Assembly (NCBI GenBank): GCA_021648285.1
Contig: JAKITC010000008.1
Span: 1 to 64,000, forward strand
Origin: Sulfurimonas sp.
GTDB taxonomy: Bacteria; Campylobacterota; Campylobacteria; Campylobacterales; Sulfurimonadaceae
Direction of reading: 5' to 3'
Length of the DNA stretch: 64,000 bases
This document shows positions 43,946 to 46,025 of the stretch, one piece after another (positions within the stretch are counted from its first letter, which is position 1; every line of letters starts with the position of its first letter). The notes beneath the pieces are model-generated. The model saw only the letters and a program-made list of their open reading frames with translations, was not told the DNA's origin and made no database searches. The position numbers and the translations under genes were made by a program.

Positions 43946-45301
43946 ATGAGCGAATACAAAGAACAGTTTCAAAAGATTGCAGTAGGAATTTTGATAGGTA
44001 TTTTGGTCTTTGCACTCTCTTTAAGCATCTTTAACATCACTCAAGCTTCACTTTTGGGACTCATTGCTCTTTTGGTAGCTTTATGGACAAATGAGGGCTT
44101 GCCTTTAGGTGTGGTTTCTCTTTTACCTATCATCATGTTCCCGGCTTTTGAAATAATGACTACTAAAGAGACAACTGTAAATTATGCACACCCAATTATA
44201 TTTCTATTTTTAGGTGGGTTTATGCTAGCAATAGCAGTTGAAAAAACACATCTTCACAGATGGATAGCAGATAAGATGCTCTCTCTTTTTCCGGCAACAC
44301 CAAAGGGAATAATATTTTCTCTTACGATAACTGCAGGACTGCTTAGTTCTGTACTTTCAAACACAACAACAACACTTTTACTTATGTCTATTGCTCTTTT
44401 TATAACGGAGAATCTAAGACTTAAAATGAGATTTGCACTTGCCATTGCTTACGGTGCAAGTGTTGGCGGTATTTTGACTCCTATTGGGACTCCTCCAAAC
44501 CTTATATTGCTCGGTATCATGCAAGATAAGGGCATGGAACTTATTCCGTTTTTACAATGGATGTGGATGGTCGCACCTTTAGTGTTTACGATGTTTTTTG
44601 TAGTTGCATCACTACTTAGTATAGGCGTTAAAGATATTGATATCTCAATCAATAGTGATAAAAAAGCCTTGGATAAAAATCAAAAAAAAGTCTTATATAT
44701 AATAGGCGGTTTAATTGTACTGCTATTATTGAATGCTCCGCTAAGACCTTATTGGAATGGTTTAGGGCTTAGTGAAGCAGGCATTTTACTCGGTGCAGGT
44801 CTTCTGCTTTTTGCACCGCCGTTTAACATACTTGATTGGATGGGTGACAAAGGAAAAGTTCCATACAGAATCATGTTTTTGTTTGGTGCCGGATTTAGTA
44901 TTGCGAAGGCATTTAGCTCAACAGGTTTAGCAGATGAATTTGCTTCATATCTTATTACCATGACACAACTCTCACCGATTATGATCCTCTTTGCTGTGGC
45001 AATGCTTATAACATTTACGACAGAGATAACATCAAATACGGCACTTATATCTATTATGCTTCCTGTTATCTATGCAGTGGCCGAGCAGACAGGTTTAAAT
45101 ATTACTCTATTTATGATGGTAGCAACTGTATGTGCCAGTTACGCTTTTATGCTTCCGATTGCCACAGCACCAAATGCAATTGCCATGAGTAGCGGGGCAG
45201 TAAGCATTAAAAATATGGCAAGATACGGGATAATTTTAAATCTGGTTGGAGTGTTTTTAATTGTGATGATAGCAGAGTACTTTTGGAAAGGGATTCTTTA
45301 A
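43946..45301 (+). CDS. SLC13/DASS-family anion transporter
   Basis: 451 residues with about eleven membrane segments. Typical DASS motifs are GGILTPIGTPPNLILLG, LSNTTTTLLLMSIALF and TTEITSNTALISIMLPV. Members import di- or tricarboxylates or sulfate with sodium; a carboxylate such as succinate or fumarate is possible here. Its last codons overlap the convergent small gene by 4 bases. Confidence 0.88.
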   Translation: MSEYKEQFQKIAVGILIGILVFALSLSIFNITQASLLGLIALLVALWTNEGLPLGVVSLLPIIMFPAFEIMTTKETTVNYAHPIIFLFLGGFMLAIAVEKTHLHRWIADKMLSLFPATPKGIIFSLTITAGLLSSVLSNTTTTLLLMSIALFITENLRLKMRFALAIAYGASVGGILTPIGTPPNLILLGIMQDKGMELIPFLQWMWMVAPLVFTMFFVVASLLSIGVKDIDISINSDKKALDKNQKKVLYIIGGLIVLLLLNAPLRPYWNGLGLSEAGILLGAGLLLFAPPFNILDWMGDKGKVPYRIMFLFGAGFSIAKAFSSTGLADEFASYLITMTQLSPIMILFAVAMLITFTTEITSNTALISIMLPVIYAVAEQTGLNITLFMMVATVCASYAFMLPIATAPNAIAMSSGAVSIKNMARYGIILNLVGVFLIVMIAEYFWKGIL

Positions 45302-45495
45302 GAGTCTCTGCTTTTGTACATAGTATAAAAATCTTTCAAAACAAGACCTGCAGTAAAGAACCACAGAATATTTAAAATATAATTTTCGTTAAGTCCTTTA
45401 TTGTAAAGATACGGAAATATTAAGAAAAATGGCCATTTAAAAAAGTAAAAAAACAGTATTGCACTTCCGTAAAGCTCTCTTATAATTTTTTTCAT
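45298..45495 (-). CDS. Small membrane protein, unknown function
   Basis: 65 residues, mostly two hydrophobic helices (AILFFYFFKWPFFLIFPYLY and a second around ILNILWFFTAGLVL). Charged ends are KKIIREL and MYKSRDS. It overlaps the 3' end of the SLC13 gene by 4 bases on the opposite strand. No family recognised. A basic N-terminus and sensible composition support coding. Confidence 0.55.
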   Translation of the reverse strand: MKKIIRELYGSAILFFYFFKWPFFLIFPYLYNKGLNENYILNILWFFTAGLVLKDFYTMYKSRDS

Positions 45496-45540
45496 AGCTC
45501 TATTTTACCTTTTTTAGCTAAAATTCTGTCAAATATTTTA

Positions 45541-45700
45541 GTATAAATCACACAAGGTGTAATGAGCTTTACGCTGAGTAAAATTTAGCGTTCAGAAAAA
45601 AATTTAGTTTTTTTCTAAGTCATGCTTTAGCATAGAAGCGTAGGTGGAGGAATTACTTCCTAAACCGTACTAATAAATGAAGGGTTTCCTTCATTTTAAA
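45541..45700 (+). ncRNA. Multi-hairpin RNA ending in a terminator, candidate attenuator leader
   Basis: A -10-like TATAAA at 45542-45547 is followed by successive stems. These are ACGCTGAG/TTTAGCGT (45571-45591, two G-U pairs valid only in plus-strand RNA), AGAAAAAAA/TTTTTTTCT (45594-45616), ATGC/GCAT (45622-45633), AGGAA/TTCCT (45648-45661) and the terminator stem AAATGAAGG/CCTTCATTT (45675-45696) with TTTT. The segment TGGAGGAA (45645-45652) can instead pair with TTCCTTCA (45686-45693) of the terminator, giving an alternative, anti-terminating fold. It ends 22 bases before the Dabb gene. GTACTAATAA at 45667-45676 also occurs at 23S rRNA 3' ends, so a decayed rRNA tail is an alternative. Confidence 0.5.
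45675..45697 (+). terminator. Strong hairpin terminator upstream of the Dabb gene
   Basis: A perfect 9-bp stem, AAATGAAGG GTTT CCTTCATTT, plus one further T, located 25 bases before the ATG at 45723. A terminator this close upstream of a coding gene suggests regulated read-through. Confidence 0.6.
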
Positions 45701-45722
45701 AATTAAAATTAAGGGATAAATA

Positions 45723-46025
45723 ATGATAGTTCATATAGTAATGTTTAGATTCAAAGAAGAAAACAAAGATGTTAATTTAAAAGAAGTTAGTTTAAGATTA
45801 AATGCTTTAGTGAAGTTGATTCCCTCTTTGAATTCTATAGAAGTAGGAGTTGATTTTTCTCAGAGCGAAAGAGCTTTTGACATGTCGATCCATACTACAT
45901 TTGATTCTAAAGAGGCTCTTGGTGAGTATGCAGTTCATCCAGAACATTTAAAAGTAGTAGAGCTTATAAAGTCTGTAACTCTAGAGTCTAAAGTAGTTGA
46001 TTATATAAAAGAGGATAGTAACTAA
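45723..46025 (+). CDS. Dabb-family (stress-responsive A/B barrel) protein
   Basis: 100 residues with the dimeric alpha/beta-barrel pattern: VHIVMFRFKEENKD at the N-terminus, LNALVKLIPSLNSIEVGVDF, DMSIHTTFDSKEALGEYAVHPEHLKVVELI. Family members are small cytoplasmic proteins whose reactions are mostly unknown. The stop is followed immediately by the M48 protease gene, so they are cotranscribed behind the structured leader. Confidence 0.87.
   Translation: MIVHIVMFRFKEENKDVNLKEVSLRLNALVKLIPSLNSIEVGVDFSQSERAFDMSIHTTFDSKEALGEYAVHPEHLKVVELIKSVTLESKVVDYIKEDSN

Follow-up and report, generated by a model that had tools for sequence, protein, structure and literature searches.

A dispersed, pseudoknotted RNA element ahead of gene starts in the Campylobacterales, with a tail that may tune translation

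Short structured repeats of bacteria are usually regarded as selfish DNA that lies away from start codons. The small dispersed repeats of cyanobacteria, about 21-27 bp long, are very small nested mobile hairpins that have also invaded rnpB, and the expression platforms of translational riboswitches consist of mutually exclusive hairpins by which the Shine-Dalgarno sequence (SD) is either freed or sequestered. The BOX elements of Streptococcus pneumoniae are small interspersed repeats of modular make-up; they lie between genes, are nested in clusters, form structure on transcription and can alter the expression of their neighbours (PMC3049150). REP sequences and REPINs, with their RAYTs, are dispersed palindromes in tandem and inverted arrangements, reported to adjoin the 3' ends of genes (PMC3116915, PMC3733652), and the small dispersed repeats of cyanobacteria are named in the same context (PMC3116915).

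In this study I describe an element that resembles several of these systems, starting from a leader in the window, i.e. the whole stretch of 64,000 nucleotides of Sulfurimonas DNA that was analysed. With BOX elements (PMC3049150) it shares many dispersed copies, a modular and nested make-up and a mainly intergenic location, and their effect on neighbouring genes was counted as a further likeness; it differs from them in sequence and architecture, having a compact pseudoknot and an SD-pairing tail just before start codons, and also in its spread across an order and its copies inside 23S rRNA and rnpB. With REP sequences and REPINs (PMC3116915, PMC3733652) it has in common dispersed palindromes, tandem and inverted arrangements and compensatory changes, whereas its 84-nt multi-domain core contrasts with a palindrome of 20-40 bp, and its location at gene starts with the 3' ends reported for REPs. 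A GUAG at the foot of helix P3 (columns 50-53 of the core alignment) may be likened to the REP-type GTAG tag, but lies within a larger conserved fold. Identity with a REP/REPIN-RAYT system was rejected, as the Y1 transposase (PF01797) is not consistently present in element-bearing genomes: the window's own genome has 2 matches, and no match is found in five genomes that each have 10-16 copies (G014, G021, G026, G031, G032). The element is much longer than the cyanobacterial repeats and carries an SD tail, and unlike translational riboswitches it has no known aptamer (no Rfam match) and precedes dozens of unrelated genes. By analogy, it would work like a BOX-type interspersed repeat with a tail resembling that of a translational riboswitch, and it does not appear to belong to a known RNA family; Rfam at gathering and relaxed thresholds gave no relevant match, in agreement with an earlier note on this DNA, and I found no description of it in the open-access literature. 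The suspicion in that note that part of the leader is a fossil 23S rRNA tail was dismissed, the best BLAST identity to a Sulfurimonas 23S being 12 nt (E 0.08), again with no Rfam match; the 23S of a relative was used because the metagenome-assembled genome (MAG) contains no rRNA. I propose that the leader is probably an inserted, mobile and self-folding RNA module of the Campylobacterales, with an SD-switch tail that likely sets translation in cis.

The leader (45541-45722) precedes an operon for a Dabb-domain protein (45723..46025, + strand; PF07876, E 1.7e-24; orthologues in 32 other genomes of the genus), an M48 peptidase and prmC. Its minimum free energy is -43.3 kcal/mol against a mean of -29.7 in shuffled sequences (z -3.2, 0 of 200 shuffles as low), and the hairpins are therefore taken as real, as was supposed when several stems were first noticed here. 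The parse of these stems needed revision in part: the stems themselves stand, but a pair of hairpins at 45593-45636 turns out to interrupt, as an insert, the loop of a mini-hairpin, and a pseudoknot is the better reading of what had passed for a simple stem at 45565-45582. The core element (45546..45674, + strand like all features below; match to model R1 in its own genome, 65.2 bits, E 1.8e-11) comprises the P1 hairpin (45550..45560, ACAC/GTGT), the compact pseudoknot (45565..45582; AGC 45565-45567 with GCT 45573-45575, crossing TTTAC 45568-45572 with GTAAA 45578-45582), the mini-hairpin (45588..45639; GC 45588-45589 with GC 45638-45639, loop GUUA split by the insert) and the P3 hairpin (45643..45666; 45643-45651 with 45658-45666). 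The insert, module B (45593..45636), is a nested 44-nt piece with two hairpins (CAGAAAAAAATTTAGTTTTTTTCTAAGTCATGCTTTAGCATAGA) that is missing in most copies; it is also found alone or in other contexts at many places in two genomes (G011 and G034), with identity between species of up to 100%, and at L014 1501-1545 it is nested within a longer palindrome 5' of an unrelated region. The SD, AAGGG (45711..45715), lies 7 nt 5' of the ATG, and its AAGG is invariant in alignment A3.

In order to assess the conservation of the core, an alignment of 84 nt (A1) was built from 32 diverse copies. It holds 167 double-changed cells versus 57.5 in shuffles, and its covariation score is 0.591 versus 0.250 when shuffled and 0.20 or less when the structure is slid; the covariation in relatives that the earlier note had set as a check is thus clearly present. 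Changes on both sides are seen in 5 of 5 pairs of P1 (helix 1 of A1) and in 8 of 9 pairs of P3, while the mini-hairpin (columns 42-43 with 48-49) shows CG/UA covariation. When other families and further copies from the genus are aligned, the structure is kept equally strongly (206 double-changed cells versus 62.9). The pseudoknot was derived from the data, as the pair with the highest mutual information (columns 19-29) crosses the P2 stem; this pair is formed in 95 of 99 copies, where shuffling gives at most 84, and in 29 of the 30 copies of a second set, drawn in part from other families, where it gives at most 26, and the outer pseudoknot pair is AU or GC in all 32 copies of A1. The predicted pseudoknot stems of 3 and 4-5 bp leave almost no loop 1, and may form together or alternate.

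Compensatory change is known as well from REPIN palindromes or hairpins of Pseudomonas, for which a constraint on the single-stranded DNA is assumed (PMC3116915), so that covariation alone is no proof of RNA function. However, at paired positions in 102 distinct copies the non-Watson-Crick cells are G.U in 62 cases versus A.C in 23, an excess that favours selection on the sense strand and hence a constraint at the RNA level, and that lends support to the earlier suggestion of a plus-strand RNA. The same excess argues against a purely selfish repeat of the BOX/REP kind, with palindromes for single-stranded DNA mobility, merely tolerated copies at gene starts and an SD overlap that is a by-product, a reading I hold to be rather doubtful and return to below.

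Most sense copies in the genus continue beyond the core into two hairpins, P4 and then P5. P4 takes the forms ATGAAGG/CCTTCAT or AAGGGAA/TTCCCTT, and P5 the form CCTT-x-ATTTTAT gaa ATAAAAT-x-AAGG, in which the CCTT is common to P4 and the SD is paired. In the window, P4 (45675..45696, AAATGAAGG/CCTTCATTT) is the SD-open state and P5 (45687..45715, TCCTT-c-ATTTTAA/TTAAAAT-t-AAGGG, with one conserved mismatch) the alternative, SD-closed state; the two are mutually exclusive, since both need CCUU 45688-45691. Pairing of the P4 arms exceeds that of shuffled arms in 57 copies. For P5, pairing extends to 99% of cells in 27 distinct sequences, found with the core model only and not using P5, and 13 double changes are counted versus 2.4 by shuffle; loci found by exact pattern were left out, because the pattern fixes P5. 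The unpaired position between the halves of P5 is kept almost throughout, as C.U, A.A, U.C, G.A or G.G. Two exclusive hairpins are thus found, one of them pairing the SD and covarying, and the tail looks like a translational switch or tuner.

In the predicted folds of 57 tails, the mean probability that the SD is paired is 0.45, with a range of 0.02 to 1.0, and the copy in the window leans towards P4 (-9.2 versus -6.5 kcal/mol; probability 0.13 at 37 C). Sense copies at gene starts in Sulfurimonas would usually have either P4 formed and the SD open, or CCUU paired with AAGG in P5 and the SD closed, and as the tail is near balance, the element most likely sets the translation level of the downstream gene in cis, with the P4/P5 equilibrium presumably acting as the tuner. 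Against a switch stands the wide variation of the predicted balance from copy to copy. Should the switch work, core genes throughout an order of environmentally important sulfur oxidisers would have their translation control rewritten by a mobile element.

P4 is the hairpin that had been described as a 9-bp terminator near the next ATG. The hairpin is indeed present, 26 nt 5' of the ATG at 45723, but a terminator scan calls none there, and the T-run is the 5' strand of the covarying P5 and is missing in many copies (TTCCCTTAAATTTATG), namely those with AAGGGAA/TTCCCTT. The mutually exclusive pairings hold as P4 versus P5 and fail as the proposed anti-terminator: for TGGAGGAA with TTCCTTCA, the mean longest stem in 57 copies is 4.81, versus 4.66 with partners exchanged and 4.90 with the arm shuffled. 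A transcription attenuator with terminator and anti-terminator, for which a 9-bp hairpin followed by TTTT and an alternative pairing in the single copy of the window could be adduced, is hardly plausible on these grounds, and a gene-specific attenuator receives no support either, many copies lying before unrelated genes.

Most copies are located directly 5' of the start codons of unrelated housekeeping genes, which I take, from my own reading of their N-termini, to be dnaK, adk, argH, rplL, rplS, clpX, fabG, ilvC and others. Of the best 30 copies in the window's own genome, 25 are sense to the next gene and 5 antisense; across about 40 genomes with automatic gene calls, a downstream gene was called for 99 copies, of which 81 read in its direction, and several of the others are sense leaders of genes missed by the simple gene caller. 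The antisense copies in the own genome (about a sixth) lack P4/P5, as do several sense copies. The family carries a conserved RNA pseudoknot and mostly lies directly before the start codons of genes of the core set (dnaK, groEL, ribosomal proteins, adk, argH), often with bistable hairpins over the ribosome-binding site. At L260 1501-1815 an FMN riboswitch lies directly 3' of a copy, making a compound leader.

The same downstream genes recur across species (dnaK, rplS, hisA, groEL), which, together with the exclusive P4/P5 tail and with unpaired core bases conserved across families (a GCYGA loop and AGCGUUAGCGUAG), would fit a riboswitch or protein-responsive leader in which binding of a metabolite or protein to the pseudoknot core would bias P4/P5 jointly at about 40 housekeeping genes. 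I consider such a regulon very unlikely, as no pathway is common to the downstream genes, the core also occurs antisense and within rRNA and rnpB, no conserved pairing between core and tail was found when P3-P4 was tested, and the 5' domain can be replaced: at dnaK, hisA and groEL the same P4/P5 tail follows the type-1 core in some species and an unrelated type-2 domain (TCTGCC..GGCTAGCTTTAGTCGCC..GGCGCAAGCG) in others. This type-2 domain (CTTTAGTCGCC..GGCGCAAGCGAAG, a hairpin and GGACTAATAA) is seen with the common tail at L020, L024, L025, L026, L033 and many of L034-L127. Two more nested inserts, CAGCGTGCCCCCTTGTGGGTATAC and CTAGGTGCCCCTTGAGGGT, are present in the P3 and P5 loops of many copies (e.g. 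L142, L146, L157).

Many copies lie between co-directional genes (grpE-dnaK, groES-groEL, hisH-hisA), and in one rRNA operon of genome G012 an inverted pair of elements replaces the loop of a 23S helix, presumably helix 45 (H45), and makes an intervening sequence. Both observations could be explained by an mRNA processing or stability element, with hairpins that, at the starts of transcripts and between the genes of an operon, are cut or shield the 5' end; I regard this as unlikely, since it leaves the conserved SD-pairing tail unexplained. The other rRNA operons of G012 have a different insert at the same helix, so that its intervening sequences differ between operons (L172 1417-1584, L292), and relatives have a short loop. 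The core also occurs inside the RNase P RNA gene rnpB in 5 of 11 genomes of one genus (L306, L308, L310, L311, L312), and one copy adjoins the start of a 16S rRNA. In G216, identical inverted pairs are found in the 16S-23S spacer, just 5' of the 23S (L253, L263, L273; three places examined among four matching). The core would fold by itself, through P1, the pseudoknot of 3 plus 4/5 bp, the mini-hairpin and P3, and would therefore be tolerated within transcripts, whether in a 5' leader, between the genes of an operon, in a helix of rRNA or in RNase P RNA; the insertions in 23S rRNA and rnpB make this RNA-level tolerance, and mobility, directly testable.

Presence or absence at orthologous sites is seen at 23S H45, at rnpB and at the Dabb gene of the window, where the core was searched for in 29 fetched orthologues and found in none. 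The empty sites of close relatives consist of a promoter, about 20 nt, the SD and the ATG (e.g. TTTTTTAGATAAAATTTTATCAAATATATAAGAGGATAATTT-ATG), and the window has the same TTTTTTAGCTAAAATTCTGTCAAAT followed by about 170 additional bases. Judged from these sites, the window element is therefore a recent arrival, placed between promoter and SD. The probable -10 box of the operon, TAAAAT (45519..45524), is 5' of the insertion and also present in orthologues without the element; it rests on a by-eye alignment with the empty sites in G006, G032, G021 and G188, and was not called by a consensus promoter scan. Divergent from the Dabb gene lies a 65-aa open reading frame (45298-45495, - strand), probably a real, conserved gene for a small membrane protein, as several relatives (e.g. 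L228, L240, L243) have a similar sequence 5' of their Dabb gene.

A DNA search (BLAST) with the window leader gives 22 matches in its own genome and matches in 32 of 60 relatives, while in the own genome the core model gives 37 matches at E<=0.01 and 47 at E<=1, and it finds copies in 50 of 60 Sulfurimonas genomes. Searched order-wide, with 18 candidates scored per genome so that counts are lower bounds, copies occur in at least 79 of 249 Campylobacterales genomes, in 19 genera. An exact search of named genomes for the 3' end of the element returns at least 94 loci, nearly all labelled Sulfurimonas, each directly 5' of a start codon among the matches listed. On the point made in the earlier note, that many copies unrelated to gene starts would speak against its reading, the outcome is mixed: copies are many, yet mostly at gene starts, though of unrelated genes, and some are antisense or within rRNA and rnpB.

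In favour of a purely selfish repeat are the dispersal in either orientation, the arrays, some tandem and some inverted, the nesting of inserts and the insertions in 23S rRNA and rnpB; against it stand the strong sense bias at gene starts, the limitation of P4/P5 to sense copies with conserved CCUU/AAGG and mismatch, and the several high-copy genomes without any Y1 transposase match. The inverted pair in the 23S of G012, the rnpB insertions and the tandem arrays were counted in favour of mobility or exchange, and the preferred, translation-setting module could have spread by means of a trans-acting enzyme or by recombination. More tentatively, it might represent an undescribed class of mobile RNA modules, an order-wide pseudoknotted fold that moves among mRNA leaders, rRNA and RNase P RNA and has gained its SD-switch tail in one lineage; if true, housekeeping genes would be receiving a translational control leader that spreads ready-made. 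In each of two genomes that belong to another family there are about 35 copies, including tandem arrays of about 92 bp; at G293:C9:15798-16241 and G207:C1:664555-664916, 4-5 near-identical cores follow one another in tandem with a period of 90-92 bp.
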